A stretch of 45,282 nucleotides of DNA from a virus. The position numbers were made by a program, and so were the translations under genes. The first letter of the stretch is position 1. Each line of letters begins with the position of its first letter. The DNA lies in IMG/VR virus record IMGVR_UViG_3300043313_000557, positions 1-45,282 of that record, one strand, 5' to 3'. The notes under the pieces were generated by a model. That model had not been told where the DNA came from, did no database searches, and saw only the letters and a list, made by a program, of their open reading frames with translations. Positions 21,594-28,351 of this stretch are shown piece after piece.

Positions 21594-21899
21594 TCAGGCC
21601 GCCGCGCCTGATGGCCGCCGGAAAACGCGACGGGCCGGGGTGGTTGGGATGGGTTCCGGCCGGGCTTTCACCGGCGGGCGCCCGAGACGCTTGGCATCGG
21701 CCGGGCGCACCGATCTCGGATTGAATTTACCCTCCGCAATCAAGACGTCAAAGTAGGCGTCGAGGGCGCGGCGGATGTGCTCCTGCTGGGCAAGGCCGGT
21801 CTGGTGCGAGATCGCCTCCAGCTTGATCTTGATCTGCGGCGGCATCCGGATCGCCGTGATGGCGAGATGGGTGCCGACAGGCTTCTTTGGACGGCTCAT
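21594..21899 (-). CDS. Ribbon-helix-helix (CopG/Arc-type) DNA-binding regulator
   Basis: 101 residues. Residues about 12-50 fit the ribbon-helix-helix pattern: a strand with Ala-Ile-Arg-Met, then a helix (Ile-Lys-Leu-Glu-Ala-Ile), Gly turn, and second helix with Arg-Arg-Ala-Leu-Asp-Ala-Tyr. The C-terminus is basic and Pro-rich. It is the only obvious DNA-binding regulator in the window and sits second in the leftward operon, near the divergent control region, so it is the natural candidate to bind the palindromes at 20721, 22575 or the repeated rightward promoters. Overlaps its neighbour by ATGA. Confidence 0.7.
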   Translation of the reverse strand: MSRPKKPVGTHLAITAIRMPPQIKIKLEAISHQTGLAQQEHIRRALDAYFDVLIAEGKFNPRSVRPADAKRLGRPPVKARPEPIPTTPARRVFRRPSGAAA

Positions 21900-22501
21900 T
21901 TGACCTCCTTCGTTGGACGAAGCCGCTTTACGGCCTCTTCGAAAACATTGGCGACGATGTCCGTCACCATCTGACGGATCTGAGCCTCTTGCGAGGGCTC
22001 CGGACCTGGCGTGGTTAGCGGTGGCGCTAAGGGTGGGGGTGGCGGTACACGCGCCGCAACAGCTTCGGCATGCGGGCTCTTATACTCCCCTTTATCAGCC
22101 CCATTGTTGGCCGCCTTGCGCGGAGCTCGCTTCTTGCCCTGGGCCGGAGGCGTTGGGGCTTCGGGCGTCGGCGGCTGTTGATTGATCATCGCCGCATAGG
22201 CCTTCTGCGCCGCAGCATAGGTGTCGGCGAGCAGCTTGCCGCGATGCTCCTGATCCCCGAACTTAACAACGTATTCGTCGGCTTTCTCGTCATATTCGAA
22301 GTTATAGACCGACGACTGCTCGATCGAGCGGAAAGCGCGCGCCTCGGCGACGGCGCCCTCCTCGGTTGCGGCCGGCAGGGCGAGCTCCTCGTCGCCTCCG
22401 AGATCCGGATGCGAGGGCAGCACGGCGAGCCACTCGTCACCCTCCTGCTCGAGCGTGATGTTGAGCTGCTTGGCCTCGGCGATCAGATTTGGGGATTGCA
22501 T
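21896..22501 (-). CDS. First gene of leftward operon, unknown, Pro-rich linker
   Basis: 201 residues from ATG 22499-22501, which has GGAGG 9 nt upstream. Residues about 10-110 look folded (strands, Trp, acidic loops; Tyr-Val-Val-Lys-Phe-Gly), then a Pro/Ala/Lys-rich linker with a poly-Pro run, then a C-terminal helix. No recognised domain. As the first gene behind the leftward promoter it is probably expressed early, together with the RHH regulator downstream. Confidence 0.6.
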   Translation of the reverse strand: MQSPNLIAEAKQLNITLEQEGDEWLAVLPSHPDLGGDEELALPAATEEGAVAEARAFRSIEQSSVYNFEYDEKADEYVVKFGDQEHRGKLLADTYAAAQKAYAAMINQQPPTPEAPTPPAQGKKRAPRKAANNGADKGEYKSPHAEAVAARVPPPPPLAPPLTTPGPEPSQEAQIRQMVTDIVANVFEEAVKRLRPTKEVK

Positions 22502-22527
22502 TTTGATTTGCCTCCGGTTGATTTGCA

Positions 22528-22557
22528 TACATAATGGGGAGGCCTGTCGAATGTCAA
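22528..22557 (-). promoter_or_regulatory. Leftward promoter of the replication/regulation operon
   Basis: Reading leftward, TTGACA (22552-22557), 17-bp spacer, TTATGT (22529-22534). The -35 is consensus. The spacer contains GGAGGCCTG (22538-22546), which is repeated exactly at 22575-22583, upstream of both promoters; these may be operator copies. Confidence 0.6.
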
Positions 22558-22598
22558 GTAGGAATAAAGATGCTGGAGGCCTGCGTCAATCTGTCGCA

Positions 22599-22652
22599 TT
22601 GCATGTTTATGCATAATAATGTATGCTTAATATGCAGTCGAAATTCCGACTG
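22599..22652 (+). promoter_or_regulatory. Promoter-leader cassette P1
   Basis: TTGCAT at 22599-22604, 17-bp spacer, TATGCT at 22622-22627, then exactly 7 nt to a hairpin CAGTCG-AAATTC-CGACTG (22635-22652), then GAGGAG and the ATG at 22665. The upstream block TGTCGCATTG is shared with P2 and P3. P1 alone is packed with GCAT/ATGC inverted repeats (22601-22626) and has a weaker -10, so it may be separately controlled. Confidence 0.65.
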
Positions 22653-22664
22653 AGGAGCACGACC

Positions 22665-22895
22665 ATGAAGATCAACGGCTACGACATTGTCACCGTGCAT
22701 GAGTATCCCCCCATCCCCTACCGCGGCTTCGACTGGTGCGCCCATCTCGACAGCTACGACGGCGCCGAGGATGCCGGCCACCAGCCGGTCGGCTGGGGCG
22801 CCACCGAGAAAGCGGCGATCGAGGATCTCTTAGAGCAGCTCGGCGAGGAAGAAGCCAACGACCAGCTCCGCTGGGATTTCGAACACGGCAAATGA
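22665..22895 (+). CDS. Small early phage protein, 76 residues
   Basis: First rightward gene behind cassette P1; ATG 22665 has GAGGAG upstream. The open frame extends further left but only into the promoter. Compact alpha/beta: strand (Ile-Asn-Gly-Tyr-Asp-Ile-Val-Thr-Val), Pro-rich turn, Trp-Cys-Ala-His-Leu strand, then a C-terminal acidic helix. Small proteins of this shape are frequent among early genes of phages of GC-rich hosts. Function unknown; host take-over or anti-defence is a guess from position. Confidence 0.65.
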   Translation: MKINGYDIVTVHEYPPIPYRGFDWCAHLDSYDGAEDAGHQPVGWGATEKAAIEDLLEQLGEEEANDQLRWDFEHGK

Positions 22896-22909
22896 AAAGG
22901 ATCAGAACC

Positions 22910-23110
22910 ATGCACGAAGCACAATCACCAATCCCGGTTTATGTGCAGCCGCCAAATCGACCGCAAGACGCACACCTGCTCGGCTATGCCGATCAGGATG
23001 TGCCTAAAAATCAGGTCATCGCACAATTCAAACTCGACGCCAACCGCCTCCTCGACGCCAAAGTCAGAACCTTTCAAGGCGAAGTCTGCTGGCTCATCGT
23101 TTCAATCTGA
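22910..23110 (+). CDS. Small early phage protein, 66 residues
   Basis: ATG 22910 follows AAAAGGATCAGAACC, nearly the same leader (AAGGACCAGAACC) that precedes the next gene, so the start is well supported. N-terminal Pro-rich stretch, then mixed alpha/beta ending Cys-Trp-Leu-Ile-Val. No family recognised. In the P1 unit with the neighbouring genes. Confidence 0.6.
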   Translation: MHEAQSPIPVYVQPPNRPQDAHLLGYADQDVPKNQVIAQFKLDANRLLDAKVRTFQGEVCWLIVSI

Positions 23111-23124
23111 GAAGGACCAGAACC

Positions 23125-23625
23125 ATGCAAGCCTCCAAGATTATGCCCGACAAGATCTACGCCATCCGCCACAAGGGCGAGCTCGCCCGCTTCGCGGTCG
23201 ACGAGGTTGTCACCCGACGCACGCGCTCGACGGGCTCGCCGCACGATTACAAGAGCGAGGTCGTCGGCCGCCTCTGGGAAGATGAAAGCCGCCAAGAGCT
23301 GACATTGGCGCCCGAAGCCATCCTCGGCCCCTACGAGGAGCACGCCGAGCTGGTCGTCCGCGAGGCGGCCGAACGCAAGGCCAGGGACGCCGCAAAGAAG
23401 GCCAAAGACCAGACGCGTTATGAACTAGCCCGTCTGCTGTTTGCACTCGTCGGCATGTGGCCGAACGAGGAGGATCTCACAGCCTACCGATCTAAGATCC
23501 GCGTCACATCAGCGACCGTCAACATCGATGACGACCTCGTTGAGCCGATGATCAAAGCGATCCGCCAGCTGTTCGACCCTGGCGAAAACGAGCTCGAGTT
23601 CGCCCGTGAAGCACAGCGCGACTGA
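23125..23625 (+). CDS. Early phage protein of unknown function, 166 residues
   Basis: ATG 23125. Residues 10-70 look like a small beta domain (Ile-Tyr-Ala-Ile-Arg, Phe-Ala-Val-Asp-Glu-Val, Val-Val-Gly-Arg-Leu), residues about 72-100 a long charged helix rich in Ala/Glu/Lys, and the rest a second helical domain with Trp113. No recognised family. Overlaps the next gene by 20 bp. Confidence 0.6.
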   Translation: MQASKIMPDKIYAIRHKGELARFAVDEVVTRRTRSTGSPHDYKSEVVGRLWEDESRQELTLAPEAILGPYEEHAELVVREAAERKARDAAKKAKDQTRYELARLLFALVGMWPNEEDLTAYRSKIRVTSATVNIDDDLVEPMIKAIRQLFDPGENELEFAREAQRD

Positions 23626-23854
23626 CGCGCAGATCCGCCGACAGATGCGCCGCCGCAAGCGGCGCATTTCTGTTCCGCCAGGCTGGGACGAGGCGCGCGA
23701 AGAGGCCGACAATGCCCGCATCAAAGCCGAATGCGAGAACCGCATGGCGGTGTTCGATCAGGCGCCCAAGCTGGTGCGCGACCGCGCCAACGAGCGCGGC
23801 GAGGCCGAGGTCAAACGCTGGTGGGAAAAGAAACAACGCGAAGAATGGTGGTAA
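23606..23854 (+). CDS. Small highly charged protein, 82 residues (GTG start)
   Basis: GTG at 23606 overlaps the upstream gene by 20 bp. Very basic N-terminus (Arg-Arg-Gln-Met-Arg-Arg-Arg-Lys-Arg-Arg), then a long helix and a C-terminal Trp-Trp-Glu-Lys-Lys...Trp-Trp. Possibly nucleic-acid binding. Last gene of the P1 unit; no clear terminator follows before P2. Confidence 0.55.
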   Translation: MKHSATDAQIRRQMRRRKRRISVPPGWDEAREEADNARIKAECENRMAVFDQAPKLVRDRANERGEAEVKRWWEKKQREEWW

Positions 23855-23876
23855 CCCCCTGCGACACTTTGTCGCA

Positions 23877-23933
23877 TTGACTATTTTAACGATATGTGGG
23901 ATAATAAGTATACGGTCGGGATTGACCCTACCG
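23877..23933 (+). promoter_or_regulatory. Promoter-leader cassette P2
   Basis: TTGACT (23877-23882), 17-bp spacer ending TGG (extended -10), GATAAT (23900-23905), 7 nt, then a 21-nt hairpin 23913-23933: CGGT, C bulge, GGG, loop ATTGA, CCC, T, ACCG. The block TGTCGCATTGACT is identical in P3. AGGAG precedes the ATG at 23958. Confidence 0.75.
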
Positions 23934-23957
23934 AACAACCCAAACCAGGAGCCAACC

Positions 23958-24857
23958 ATGTCTTTCCATCATGCAACGTCTGCCCGTATCGCTCGCTTCG
24001 GCCGCGGCGCCGTCATCCTGCGAGGCCGCGAAGCGGCGCTCGATGCCGACACGCTCAGGAGCGCCGCGCCGACGCTGTTCGCCGAGGGCAAGCACTCATC
24101 GCGCTCCGAGCGGTACGCCCACATCCCGACGTTCGAAGTGCTCGCCGGCCTCGAGCGTGAGGGCTTCCGCCCATACGAGGTGCGCGTCGGCGGCTCATCG
24201 GATCTCGACAAGCGCAACCATACGAAGCACCTGATCCGCCTGCGCAAGGACGGCCTCGACGCCCGTAGGGGCCGCGTCCCCGAGGTCGTGCTCATCAATG
24301 CCCACGACGGCACCTCGCGCTACAAGCTCATGTATGGCGTTTTCATCATGGTGTGCTCGAACGGCACCATCGTCAGCGATGGCGAGATGACGGAGCTGAG
24401 TATCCCGCACAAGGGCGACGTCATCAACCGCGTCATCGAGGGCACGTATCAGGTGATCGGCGAAAGCCGGCGCATCGAGGATCATGTGCAGCAGATGGAG
24501 GCCGTGCAGCTGACGCACAGCGAGCAGCGCGCCTTCGCCGAGAGCGCGGCCATGCTCAGGTGGGCGCCCGACGCCGAGACAGGCACGTCCAACGTGCCCG
24601 CCACCATCCAGGCACGCCCCGAGGCGATCCTGATCCCGCGCCGCCATGCGGACAACACGCCCTCGCTCTGGAACGTGTTCAACCGCGCGCAGGAGAACCT
24701 GATCAACGGCGGCGTGTCCTACACGGACACCAACGCCCGCGGCCGGCTTGTGCACAGGACGGCGCGCGCCGTGAACGGGATCGACGGCAACGTCGGCTTG
24801 AACCGTGCGCTCTGGCACTTGGCTGCCCGCATGGCCGAGTTAAAACAAGCGGCGTGA
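23958..24857 (+). CDS. DUF932-type phage/plasmid protein
   Basis: 299 residues from ATG 23958; the longer open frame to the left runs through the promoter and an upstream gene and is rejected. The order of features matches DUF932-type proteins of phages and plasmids: Pro-Thr-Leu-Phe-Ala-Glu, Tyr-Ala-His-Ile-Pro-Thr, Arg-Lys-x-Gly, a His-Asp/Asn-Gly-Thr-Ser strand, Cys-Ser-Asn-Gly-Thr, then a helical end with Trp-Asn-Val-Phe-Asn and Gly-Arg. Biochemical role is not known; such genes often sit among accessory or anti-defence genes. Sole gene of the P2 unit, closed by a strong terminator. Confidence 0.72.
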   Translation: MSFHHATSARIARFGRGAVILRGREAALDADTLRSAAPTLFAEGKHSSRSERYAHIPTFEVLAGLEREGFRPYEVRVGGSSDLDKRNHTKHLIRLRKDGLDARRGRVPEVVLINAHDGTSRYKLMYGVFIMVCSNGTIVSDGEMTELSIPHKGDVINRVIEGTYQVIGESRRIEDHVQQMEAVQLTHSEQRAFAESAAMLRWAPDAETGTSNVPATIQARPEAILIPRRHADNTPSLWNVFNRAQENLINGGVSYTDTNARGRLVHRTARAVNGIDGNVGLNRALWHLAARMAELKQAA

Positions 24858-24888
24858 TCATTTCTCACGTCCCGTGATCACCACCTCA

Positions 24889-24915
24889 GACCCGGCTTCG
24901 GCCGGGTCTCTTTTT
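24889..24915 (+). terminator. Rho-independent terminator of the P2 unit
   Basis: GACCCGGC (24889-24896), loop TTCG, GCCGGGTC (24901-24908), then TCTTTTT. Stable UUCG tetraloop. Confidence 0.92.
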
Positions 24916-24945
24916 GTGCATAAAGGGGTGTGACATTATGTCGCA

Positions 24946-24999
24946 TTGACTTTATTCGGCATATGTGGGATAATATGTATACGGTCGAAAGAGCGACCG
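24946..24999 (+). promoter_or_regulatory. Promoter-leader cassette P3
   Basis: TTGACT (24946-24951), 17-bp spacer ending TGG, GATAAT (24969-24974), 7 nt, then hairpin CGGTCG-AAAGAG-CGACCG (24982-24999). GAGGAGAACGACC leads to ATG 25012, 12 nt after the hairpin, as in P1. Confidence 0.78.
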
Positions 25000-25011
25000 A
25001 GGAGAACGACC

Positions 25012-25587
25012 ATGTCAGCTTACCTCTGCGATCAAGACACCATCAACGCCATCGCCACCTACGCCGCCACCCACGGCCTCGTCGAGGATGCGGCCCTGTT
25101 CGCCGATCTGCTCACCCTCCAGAATGTCGCCTCGATGCATGCCCGTTACGCCGGCCGCGACTGGCTCAAGAGCGAGGTCGATGATGTTGCCGCGGCCTAC
25201 AGCTACGAGCGCGTTCTGACCGATGCCCGCACCGTCGCCGAGTATGCCCGCGAGTATGATTATCAGGCATGCGAGACCGAGGATTATCAGGCGACGCTAT
25301 GCCACCGGCTTGTGCAGCGTGTGCAGGAGCACGCCTATGCCCTCGCCGGGCTCGAGCGCAAGGGCGGATGCGGCGCCGCCGTGAACACCTATCACATCAC
25401 CGCCCGCCGTATGACGGCGCAAGCTTGGCGCCTCATGGGCGAAGCCCGTCAGATGAAGAAGCAAGCCGCGCAAGAGCCGGATAGCATCTACGCCCGCCTC
25501 CTGCTCACCAGCGTATCGAGCTATGCCACCTGTGCCCGCATGTCGCTCGGCACCGCCCGCATCTACCGCAACATGGGAGCACGCTAA
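25012..25587 (+). CDS. Helical accessory protein of unknown function, 191 residues
   Basis: ATG 25012 behind the P3 leader; the longer open frame covers the promoter. The protein is almost wholly helical and Ala/Tyr-rich. One stretch (about 117-140) has Gly-Gly-Cys-Gly-Ala-Ala followed by Arg-Arg-Met and Arg-x-Met; the same Gly-Gly-Cys-Gly-Ala-Ala string occurs in the 478-residue protein at 26131, perhaps by chance. First gene of a three-gene unit (TAATG junctions) ended by the terminator at 26007. Confidence 0.6.
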   Translation: MSAYLCDQDTINAIATYAATHGLVEDAALFADLLTLQNVASMHARYAGRDWLKSEVDDVAAAYSYERVLTDARTVAEYAREYDYQACETEDYQATLCHRLVQRVQEHAYALAGLERKGGCGAAVNTYHITARRMTAQAWRLMGEARQMKKQAAQEPDSIYARLLLTSVSSYATCARMSLGTARIYRNMGAR

Positions 25588-25796
25588 TGAACGACGGTTA
25601 CAAGCGCATTGTGCAAGCGCGCGGCAAAGGCCAGGACCATACCGCATGGGAGCGAGTGTCCCGCGAGTATGACACCGCGGAAGAAGCCGAGGCCCGCCTT
25701 GCCCGCTTTGAGCGCATCTGCCCCGACTTTGAATATCGTGTCTGTTCCCTGATCCCCGTCGATAGCCCGGAAGGGCAAGCCCTAAGGAGAGACTAA
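25587..25796 (+). CDS. Small early phage protein, 69 residues
   Basis: Start overlaps the previous stop (TAATG). Strand-helix-strand plan: Tyr-Lys-Arg-Ile-Val-Gln-Ala, helix Ala-Glu-Glu-Ala-Glu-Ala-Arg-Leu-Ala-Arg, strand Tyr-Arg-Val-Cys-Ser-Leu-Ile. Function unknown. Overlaps the next start by one base. Confidence 0.65.
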   Translation: MNDGYKRIVQARGKGQDHTAWERVSREYDTAEEAEARLARFERICPDFEYRVCSLIPVDSPEGQALRRD

Positions 25797-26002
25797 TGTC
25801 CTGGAAATGCGAAGTGACCACGAACAACGGCATCGACTGGGCATCGAACGCGATCCGCCTGCCGACGCGCGAACAAGCCGAGGCCTATGCTCGAGATCTG
25901 ATGATGCGATGGACGTCTGTGCGCGACTGGCGTGTTGTCGAGTGTGATGATCCGGTGAATTATGACTGGAGCATCACGCAAGGCCTCATCCGCCGCGGCT
26001 AA
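25796..26002 (+). CDS. Small early phage protein, 68 residues
   Basis: TAATG junction with the upstream gene. Beta-helix-beta plan like the preceding protein (Trp-Lys-Cys-Glu-Val, helix Arg-Glu-Gln-Ala-Glu-Ala-Tyr-Ala, strand Asp-Trp-Arg-Val-Val-Glu), which suggests that the two small genes may be distant paralogues. Last gene before the terminator at 26007. Confidence 0.65.
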   Translation: MSWKCEVTTNNGIDWASNAIRLPTREQAEAYARDLMMRWTSVRDWRVVECDDPVNYDWSITQGLIRRG

Positions 26003-26006
26003 ACGA

Positions 26007-26033
26007 GAGGGCGCTTTAAGCGCCCTCTTTTTT
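26007..26033 (+). terminator. Rho-independent terminator of the P3 unit
   Basis: GAGGGCGC (26007-26014), loop TTTAA, GCGCCCTC (26020-26027), then TTTTTT. It starts 4 nt after the last stop codon of the unit. Confidence 0.92.
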
Positions 26034-26060
26034 GCCCATATCTTAGGAATATATGTGGTA

Positions 26061-26117
26061 TTGACATATGTCTGTTAATATGCAATAATATGTTCACGGT
26101 CGAGATGAGCTCAACCG
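26061..26117 (+). promoter_or_regulatory. Promoter-leader cassette P4
   Basis: TTGACA (26061-26066), 17-bp spacer ending TGC (extended -10), AATAAT (26084-26089), 7 nt, then a 21-nt hairpin 26097-26117: CGGT, C, GAG, loop ATGAG, CTC, A, ACCG. Same architecture as P2 with a compensating change in the inner stem. ATAGGAG leads to ATG 26131. Confidence 0.75.
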
Positions 26118-26130
26118 ATAGGAGATTGAC

Positions 26131-27567
26131 ATGGCGGCTTTCCAAAAGGGTTTCGGTTCGTATGTCTGCGCTGGCGATTGGATCGACGGCGAGGCCGACG
26201 GCTTCACAGTGCGCGCCACGGTTTACCGTGACGACAATGCCGACCGGCCGGACCAAATGTCAGAAGGTTTCTGGCCGTCACGCGACCCGAATGATGCGGG
26301 CTATACGCCAAACTATTGGCCGGAATTTTACCGCGCTCAGGAAGCGATGCGCGCCTGGCAAGCTGATGAATGGTTCTATTGCGGCATCGCCGTCACGGTG
26401 TTCAAAGACGACGTCTGCCTGAGCACGCCTTACGAGCATGCGCTCTGGGCAATCGAGGCTAACTATCCCGGCTCCGATAACGCTTATTTGCTCGAGGTGG
26501 CGAACGATTTAGTCGAGGATGCGATCGCGGCCGCAAAGGAAAAGACGGCAGAGCTTGATTGCGATGTGCTCGCCGCTGCGATCCGCAATTGCGCGGCGAA
26601 CATGATCGAAAGCATGCGTGACGCGTATCAAGCCGGCGATGCGCACTATGCCGACGCGGCTGTTCGCTTGATCCGCGATCAGCTTGGATACGATGCCGAG
26701 GCTATCTTTGCCGAGGCGCGCGCCAAGACGATTGGCCATTATGACATTGAACAGCCTGGTGGATGCGGCGCGGCGCGCAACCCGTTGGCGCGCGATTTCC
26801 CGAAACGGGCGCATGGCATGCGGCTGCTCACGCCGGCGCAAGCGAAAATGGACAAGAGCCGCGCGCGCGGCTTTTGGACGTTCGTTCTCCACTTTGCGCC
26901 GCATAAGCTATCGGGCTTCAATGTCTGCCCGAAGGCGTCGGCCGGGTGCATCGCCGCATGCCTGAACCTCTCAGGAAGGGCAGAGATGACCGTGGGCGGC
27001 CGTGTGACGTTGGCCGGTATCAAGAGCGGCCGACGCACGAACACCATTCACCGGGCCCGCCTGAGGCGTACGCGGGCATTCATGGCGAATAGGGGAGAGT
27101 TCATGGCGCTATTGGTGGCAGATATCGAGCGGGCTTGTGATGAGGCCGGTAAGGCCGGTCTCGAGGCGTGCTTCCGCCTGAATGGCACGTCTGACATCAG
27201 ATGGGAGCGCGTCCCATGCATGCGGGGAGGCGTTGTGTTTGACAACGTCATGTCGGCATTTCCGAGTGTGATGTTTTACGATTATACGAAGATCGAGAAT
27301 AGGCGCGGCTTGCCGGCTAACTATCGCCTGACGTTCTCGCTTAACGAGAATAATGGCAAGGCCGCCGCGCGCCTCCTGGCGAGCGGCATGAACGTTGCCG
27401 CCGTGTATCGAACGAAGGCGCTGGCATTACTTGAAGCGGGCAAGCCGGGACGGGTCGACGGGGATCAGGATGACCTGCGCTTTCTCGATCCCGAAGGCGT
27501 CATAGTGGCTCTGTCGGCCAAAGGGCGACTGGCGAAGAGAGATCGATCTGGTTTTGTTCTAGGGTGA
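26131..27567 (+). CDS. Fusion: small early-phage domain plus cysteine-cluster (gp88-like) domain
   Basis: 478 residues. Residues 1-130 look like a stand-alone small phage protein (Trp-Phe-Tyr-Cys-Gly-Ile-Ala-Val-Thr-Val near 81-90, then an Asn-Asp-Leu-Val-Glu-Asp helix). Residues 130-205 are helical. Residues 245-478 resemble the phage Gene-product-88 family (PF17338): Phe-Asn-Val-Cys266-Pro-Lys with Cys273 and Cys277 (C-x6-C-x3-C), then Phe-Arg-Leu-Asn-Gly-Thr-Ser-Asp (348-355), Phe-Tyr-Asp-Tyr-Thr-Lys (382-387) and Leu-Asn-Glu-Asn. The family has no proven function; the Cys cluster could bind metal or an Fe-S centre. Sole gene of the P4 unit. Family call is from pattern memory. Confidence 0.6.
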   Translation: MAAFQKGFGSYVCAGDWIDGEADGFTVRATVYRDDNADRPDQMSEGFWPSRDPNDAGYTPNYWPEFYRAQEAMRAWQADEWFYCGIAVTVFKDDVCLSTPYEHALWAIEANYPGSDNAYLLEVANDLVEDAIAAAKEKTAELDCDVLAAAIRNCAANMIESMRDAYQAGDAHYADAAVRLIRDQLGYDAEAIFAEARAKTIGHYDIEQPGGCGAARNPLARDFPKRAHGMRLLTPAQAKMDKSRARGFWTFVLHFAPHKLSGFNVCPKASAGCIAACLNLSGRAEMTVGGRVTLAGIKSGRRTNTIHRARLRRTRAFMANRGEFMALLVADIERACDEAGKAGLEACFRLNGTSDIRWERVPCMRGGVVFDNVMSAFPSVMFYDYTKIENRRGLPANYRLTFSLNENNGKAAARLLASGMNVAAVYRTKALALLEAGKPGRVDGDQDDLRFLDPEGVIVALSAKGRLAKRDRSGFVLG

Positions 27568-27608: not shown

Positions 27609-27636
27609 AAAAGCCGCTCTCGAGCGGCTTTTCTCA
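27609..27636. terminator. Bidirectional terminator after the P4 unit
   Basis: AAAAGCCGCTC (27609-27619), TC, GAGCGGCTTTT (27622-27632), then TCTC. Perfect 11-bp stem with A/T-rich ends, so it can act in both directions. A smaller perfect hairpin, TGAGGGC-C-GCCCTCA (27565-27579), starts on the stop codon of the preceding gene. Confidence 0.85.
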
Positions 27637-28027
27637 TTGCTGGCACGGGCAAAACGTTCCGTGGAACGGGGAGCCGAGGATGGTGGCATGCTTCGCTGGA
27701 ATGCGAGAATGCGTTTGACCTCAATGTGTTAGCTTCTCCGTTCCAGCGTTCCACTATCTTTCTATAAGAGGGAGGGAGAGAATATAAAACTGAGGTCAGA
27801 CGGGATTTCAATGAGTTAGAGTGTTGCATAAATGTTGGGAGATGCAGTGATACATGTTTTTAGGGAGAGAGTAGGGAAAAGCGATAGTGGAGCGCCTGAT
27901 CGTGGATCGCGCCCTCTCGCCCTCGTAAGCGCCCTCTCGATATTGGCGTTGATCCGCGCTTTCGTGCCAGCATCCGGCCTCGCACATACGCACGCGCGCG
28001 TGTGTGCCCGGACAGGAGCGCATTCCT

Positions 28028-28139
28028 CGTAGTATTCGATAAGTAATCATAAGTAATCACTACGGAAGTAAAGCCTAAGTAATGATGTGCATATGTCTAA
28101 GTATAACTTAGACTAATGAGCATGATTACTTAGGCTTTA
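28028..28139. repeat. Nested inverted repeats with AAGTAAT repeats
   Basis: CGTAGT (28028-28033) pairs with ACTACG (28059-28064) around two direct copies of AAGTAATCA. Next, TAAAGCCTAAGTAAT (28069-28083) pairs perfectly with ATTACTTAGGCTTTA (28125-28139). Within it, GTCTAAGT-ATA-ACTTAGAC (28095-28113) is a perfect 8-bp hairpin, and the bases between pair in part. The whole 71-nt unit could form one long cruciform arm. Confidence 0.85.
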
Positions 28140-28351
28140 TCTTACATAATACTATAAGACTACTAGCCTAGGTGTCATCGCCTACATATGTCGCTTAACT
28201 CCTAGGAATACGTTCTTGTGAGACCCCCCTTGACTAGATTTTATTCCTAGCGGCCTAGGCACTCAGCCATGGCACCCCATTTCCACATTATCAAGCATAT
28301 CCCTGACACACCAACTTGACACCGCCCAAAAGTTCGGCTACGCACGAGACC

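Follow-up and report, generated by a model that had tools for sequence, protein, structure and literature searches.

In Escherichia coli a hairpin at the 5' end impedes conversion by RppH and stabilizes the bla mRNA, and the Bacillus enzyme requires at least two unpaired nucleotides at the 5' end (PMC3997798). In cluster K mycobacteriophages, the start-associated sequence (SAS) is the 13-bp GGGATAGGAGCCC at the start codon; its authors link it to translation starts and report no support for RNA pairing in the extended SAS (ESAS) (PMC3203893). At the level of DNA recognition, the PrrA/RegA site is a degenerate GCG inverted repeat (PMC4263372, PMC5435760), and putative RegR boxes of Bradyrhizobium japonicum read TGCGTCAACGGCGA, TGCGACATCGGCGGC, and TGCGGCTTTCGTGCC (PMC4064962 Table 1). 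Here, we analyzed a virus record of 45,282 bp from IMG/VR (IMGVR_UViG_3300043313_000557; a soil-type phage with a GC content of 62%), in the following called the window, in which four promoter-leader cassettes, P1–P4, each combine a predicted promoter with a hairpin at the presumed transcription start. The cassette is real, copied, and made of separable parts, and phages appear to reuse it as a control element. From the sequence we consider it fairly probable that P1–P4 are copies of a three-layer cassette, which consists of a sigma-70 promoter, an activator palindrome (in P1–P3), and a 5'-protecting hairpin.

The first-pass annotation of the window had proposed the four promoters, and all of them were found at the proposed positions with the proposed hexamers and 17-bp spacers (Table 1), and P2–P4 carry the extended −10 TG as claimed. 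The distance from the −10 to the stem is exactly 7 nt in four of four cassettes and the hairpin is followed by a ribosome site, which also agrees with that annotation. With −35 and −10 hexamers taken at a distance of 16–18 bp, P2–P4 show 10–11 of 12 matches to the sigma-70 consensus and P1 shows 7 of 12. P1 is the weakest copy, having three of six matches in its −35, the stem CAGTCG..CGACTG, a G at +1, and no extended −10 TG. A sigma-70 scan of the region from 20 to 30 kb yielded 10 sites compared to 2.7 expected, with P2–P4 among the four top scores. The window contains the pattern TTGAC-N19-ATAAT-NNNTNY-ACGGTC three times, and 100 shuffles did not produce it once.

If transcription starts 7 nt past the −10, position +1 would be an A (or G) and the stem would begin at +2. 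RNA folded from this presumed +1 leaves one unpaired nucleotide in each of P1–P4, and the hairpin that follows has a folding energy between −7.9 and −9.8 kcal/mol. The stems of P2 and P4 carry a 1x1 mismatch, and the P4 hairpin is not the minimum free energy fold in longer context. An intrinsic terminator or attenuator was rejected as an explanation, since there is no U run after the stem and an AGGAG-type sequence is found instead. Rfam returned no family at gathering score in the window, nor at the hairpins in 12 loci from relatives and hairpin-bearing phages.

The portal, scaffold, and capsid proteins of the window match phage families, and the closest named relative is Ochrobactrum phage vB_OspP_OH (Wolominvirus, MT028492; capsid 63%, DNA polymerase 42%). 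Since this relative infects Ochrobactrum, the host of the window phage is probably an alphaproteobacterium. A motif search in related phages, which had been suggested as a check, recovered the same layout in contig IMGVR_UViG_3300043313_000661 (L002/G001; four cassettes), in G002 (the contig behind L081; three cassettes in region L342), and in G048 (one cassette, in L343). The three cassettes of G002 each carry the palindrome described below together with a weak TTGC-type −35, and the single cassette of G048 is without it. When all 12 cassettes of the four phages, window included, were folded, 12 of 12 left a single nucleotide unpaired at the 5' end (folding energies from −7.5 to −11.2 kcal/mol) and lie within the one to two unpaired nucleotides of a 5'-terminal stabilizing hairpin, a count that assumes +1 to be 7 nt after the −10. 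Stem changes among the cassettes keep the pairing, with G-C or A-T at pair 2 and likewise at pair 6. No DNA-level homology of the cassette region was found among named phages, and no cassette was found in the first 50 kb of Pbunavirus PA8P1, Wifcevirus WFC, and Sinorhizobium HMSP1-Susan, which are named phages with related downstream genes.

Spacer and discriminator show a mean identity of 0.52 within a phage compared to 0.43 between phages (permutation p 0.009). The genes behind the cassettes have moved between units: a gene for a 68-aa protein belongs to the P3 unit in the window and to the first unit in L002. The DUF932 accessory gene occurs in just 2 of the 15 records searched, and the DUF932 protein of L002 is 66% identical to that of the window. 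Because copies within one phage are more alike and genes were moved between units, these data support a copying of the cassette within each phage lineage ahead of exchangeable accessory genes.

In order to follow the hairpin beyond these relatives, 2.9 million viral contigs were scanned with the pattern ATAAT-NNNNNY-ACGGTC-N3..12-GACCG, which matched 89 stretches. Outside the window and L002, there are 72 distinct sites. A −35 with at least four of six matches was found at 36 of them, a start codon with a ribosome site at 38, and the two features together at 28; these criteria were set after the first hits had been seen and were applied identically to all controls. Both features were found in 1 of 21 sites with the permuted stem AGCGTC..GACGC (Fisher p 0.003), in none of 26 with the hairpin moved 4 nt downstream (p 3e-5), and in 9 of 50 with the compensatory stem ACAGTC..GACTG, and the TATAAT form yielded 3 of 44, which equals background, in 257 Gb of bacterial genomes. 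Both the sequence of the hairpin and its place relative to the −10 are thus specific, and this holds for unrelated phages. Among the 28 two-feature sites, some of which are near relatives of one another so that independent lineages number fewer than 28, the first loop base is a purine in 28 and a G follows the stem in 19, with loops of 4–12 nt. This variable loop length speaks for an RNA structure rather than a DNA-binding site, and a DNA operator was rejected for the same reason. The genes behind these sites are varied and encode mostly small uncharacterized proteins, with DUF932 proteins among them too; in the named phage MW202621.1 there are two cassettes identical to each other, one of them ahead of its DUF932-like gene. 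In the large phage contig L281 (IMGVR_UViG_3300021400_000027, 179787 bp) the CAGTC version ACAGTCAAGGGAAAGACTG stands at 163, 2476, and 3133, each time 6 nt past a TATAAT. Another phage contig, with a CGGTC hairpin cassette, bears an Rfam RT-15 RNA match (L054:5012-5239, minus strand, 133 bits).

Since hairpins at the 5' end can hinder RppH and stabilize bla mRNA, the simplest explanation of the start-site hairpin is a probable protection of the mRNA 5' end. Alternatively, a specific RNA-binding protein of phage or host might bind the hairpin and control translation or antitermination of these units, in which case the hairpin would not be a passive protector. The stem sequence kept across unrelated phages, the purine at the first loop position, the G after the stem, and the distance of 3–18 nt to the ribosome site would fit such a protein, but the loop length varies, the compensatory stem is used as well, and no shared RNA-binding protein was identified, so that we regard this explanation as possible and somewhat improbable. 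A literature search, for which most subscription papers were out of reach, found no description of a start-site phage hairpin. Rather doubtful, in our estimate, is the wider proposal of an RNA element, shared by many phages and so far undescribed, that comprises ACGGUC-R..GACCG and the variant CAGUC/GACUG. A conserved host factor would recognize its sequence, the element would mark phage mRNAs to be stabilized or preferentially translated, and it would have spread among unrelated phages with or without their promoters.

The second part of the cassette had been overlooked in the first-pass annotation. A 17-bp palindrome, TGYGACA-NNN-TGTCGCA, stands directly against the −35 of P1, P2, and P3; at up to one mismatch the window has three such sites compared to none expected, with a gap of 0 to the −35 in three of three, and P4 has no such palindrome. 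The 13-bp block TGTCGCATTGACT that had been noted as common to P2 and P3 is exact in both, with its first 10 bp present in P1, and it corresponds to the right half of the palindrome plus the −35. In the complete genome of vB_OspP_OH there are six palindromes at up to one mismatch, where none are expected. Two of them directly adjoin a −35 that is weak (TAGACA). The other four stand 10–11 bp ahead of the −35, which reads TTGACA or TTGACG and is separated by 17 bp from a TAAAAT. The CGGTC hairpin is absent from this genome, which makes palindrome and hairpin separable parts, and the hairpin sites of many unrelated phages are without the palindrome. The suggestion of a portable module copied to each gene group thus stands insofar as the cassette is repeated in the accessory region and copied, but an indivisible module is not supported, because each part occurs alone in other phages. 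Similarly, common control of an accessory island would apply to P1–P3 at most, as P4 lacks the palindrome.

A shift of 10–11 bp is one helical turn, so that a bound protein would still face the same side of the helix. This is expected of a factor that contacts RNA polymerase, and such a factor probably reads the palindrome. This phasing in vB_OspP_OH, together with the perfect TTGACA −35 of the palindrome-free P4 and of the palindrome-free first cassette (p1) of L002, favors an activator. As a lead only, a host response regulator of the RegR/RegA/PrrA type is the leading candidate, since the half sites TGCG[A/T/G]CA resemble the putative RegR boxes by eye. A repressor, encoded by phage or host, might instead use the palindrome as its operator and block the −35, shutting off P1–P3, for example late in infection. 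In the window and in G002, the palindrome does touch the −35, and a small CopG/RHH-like protein is encoded next door (21597-21899, minus strand; phrog_7325, E-value 4e-4), adjoining a divergent control region and conserved in L002, G041, and G048. But in vB_OspP_OH a full helical turn separates four operators from the consensus or near-consensus −35 downstream of them, which is a poor place for occlusion, and its gap-0 operators have weak −35s, so that we consider a repressor unlikely. The CopG/RHH-like protein itself was rejected as the reader of the palindrome, as G041 and G048 have the gene and no GACANNNTGTC site in their records, and vB_OspP_OH has six sites and no detectable homolog; its absence from G002 is uninformative, because this contig ends inside polA and does not cover the region. 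Single-sequence structure prediction of the protein was poor (predicted local distance difference test, pLDDT, of 60). An exact TGTTTCACGTGAAACA, a ParB parS-type site, is present at L342:5753-5768 in G002, directly after a TGCGACATGTTGTCGCA palindrome, and at L343:7302-7317 in G048; the window contains none at up to three mismatches. Ordinary convergence of strong phage promoters with chance small hairpins is very improbable, for although 4–11% of random 24-nt segments in this GC-rich genome fold equally stably and repeated promoters are common among phages, the exact shared positions (three matches compared to none in shuffles), the same layout in relatives, the two identical copies in the unrelated MW202621.1, and the permuted-stem and shift controls all disfavor it.

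Under the three-layer reading, host RNA polymerase would use the sigma-70 promoter (−35, 17 bp, extended −10 in P2–P4), and at P1–P3 a transcription factor bound to the palindrome would contact the polymerase and probably activate it. Transcription would start 7 nt past the −10 at a purine, leaving one unpaired nucleotide before a hairpin of 5–7 bp, C[G/A]GUC..GAC[C/U]G, just upstream of the ribosome site. The folded 5' end would most likely bar the pyrophosphohydrolase RppH and the 5'-end-dependent RNase E and so prolong expression. Some points weigh against this scheme. Judged by the consensus, P1 makes a poor promoter; the rule that a palindrome goes with a weak −35 has exceptions, as p2 and p3 of L002 combine a partial palindrome with a perfect −35; RegR boxes are degenerate, so that the resemblance could be chance; and 5' protection alone leaves the recurrent CGGTC stem in unrelated phages unexplained, which hints at some other recognition.

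The units behind P1–P4, which the first-pass annotation assumed to be early, and their genes are listed in Table 1. Strong terminators had been noted for two of the units, and three were found. Upstream of P1, there is a divergent promoter-like site on the minus strand (~22525-22559; TTGACA, 17–18 bp, TATGT-type −10), downstream of which a minus-strand open reading frame (ORF) begins at 22501 behind a GGAGG and ends at 21896. At ~28010-28200, in an otherwise GC-rich genome, an AT-rich intergenic stretch carries several TAAGTAATCA and CCTAAGTAAT-like repeats and is possibly an origin or regulatory region.

Table 1. Cassette parts, transcription units, and terminators in the window.
Feature	Position	Strand	Description
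P1 promoter	22599-22627	+	TTGCAT-17-TATGCT; −35 only 3/6
P2 promoter	23877-23905	+	TTGACT-17-GATAAT, extended −10 TG
P3 promoter	24946-24974	+	TTGACT-17-GATAAT, extended −10 TG
P4 promoter	26061-26089	+	TTGACA-17-AATAAT, extended −10 TG, without TGYGACA palindrome
P1 operator	22582-22598	+	TGCGTCAATCTGTCGCA, 1 mismatch; abuts −35
P2 operator	23860-23876	+	TGCGACACTTTGTCGCA, perfect palindrome; abuts −35
P3 operator	24929-24945	+	TGTGACATTATGTCGCA; abuts −35
P1 hairpin	22634-22652	+	stem CAGTCG/CGACTG from +2, second pair A-T replacing G-C
P2 hairpin	23912-23933	+	CGGT-C-GGG(ATTGA)CCC-T-ACCG from +2
P3 hairpin	24981-24999	+	CGGTCG(AAAGAG)CGACCG from +2, AGGAG directly after
P4 hairpin	26096-26117	+	CGGT-C-GAG(ATGAG)CTC-A-ACCG from +2
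P1 unit ORFs	22665-22895, 22910-23110, 23125-23625, 23606-23854	+	no family match for any
P2 unit	23958-24857	+	DUF932 protein (PF06067, 299 aa); family match
P3 unit ORFs	25012-25587, 25587-25796, 25796-26002	+	191 aa, 69 aa, 68 aa
P4 unit	26131-27567	+	478-aa protein with a GP88 domain (PF17338, residues 252-476); family match
P2 unit terminator	24888-24909	+	intrinsic
P3 unit terminator	~26007-26033	+	intrinsic, GAGGGCGCTTTAAGCGCCCTCTTTTTT; read in sequence
P4 unit terminator	27609-27632	+	intrinsic, AAAAGCCGCTCTCGAGCGGCTTTT; read in sequence

If the proposed scheme is true, phages of many groups use one compact part, a promoter with a hairpin in the first bases, for protected messages of accessory genes, and one lineage wires such parts to a regulator that is perhaps encoded by the host. 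It would then be a simple handle by which to search unannotated phages for accessory and anti-host genes, and it could be tested as a portable part for expression.

In comparison with the known systems, the cassette hairpin is like the 5'-terminal stabilizing hairpins of bla with an added 5' hairpin and of the ompA 5' untranslated region (PMC3997798) in being at most 1 nt from the 5' end and upstream of a strong ribosome site. It differs in that unrelated phages have kept its stem sequence and that copies of it stand at several promoters of one genome. The SAS/ESAS elements (PMC3203893) are likewise multi-copy signals ahead of a subset of genes, including an inverted-repeat pair, but the signal in the window is tied to the −35, the −10, and the transcription start and has a hairpin with pair-keeping changes; the 13-bp GGGATAGGAGCCC, read in the sequence, is absent at the four start codons. 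Promoters of the N4 virion RNA polymerase also join a hairpin to phage early promoters, but there the hairpin is itself the promoter and lies in the DNA upstream of +1 (PMC4496689), whereas here it is downstream of a complete sigma-70 promoter; an N4-type promoter was rejected for the window, as the hairpin is on the wrong side of the start. In its GCG-type inverted repeat with the half site TGCGNCA, the palindrome resembles the RegR/RegA/PrrA boxes of Alphaproteobacteria (PMC4064962, PMC4263372, PMC5435760), the class to which the Ochrobactrum host of the closest named phage belongs; these boxes are degenerate and variable in spacing, whereas the palindrome of the window has a spacing of 3 between 7-bp halves. 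A search for promoters in the paper on vB_OspP_OH found nothing; this phage carries the same palindrome six times ahead of TTGACA-17-TAAAAT-type promoters, and it differs from the window in having no CGGTC hairpin and in placing four of the six palindromes one helical turn further upstream.

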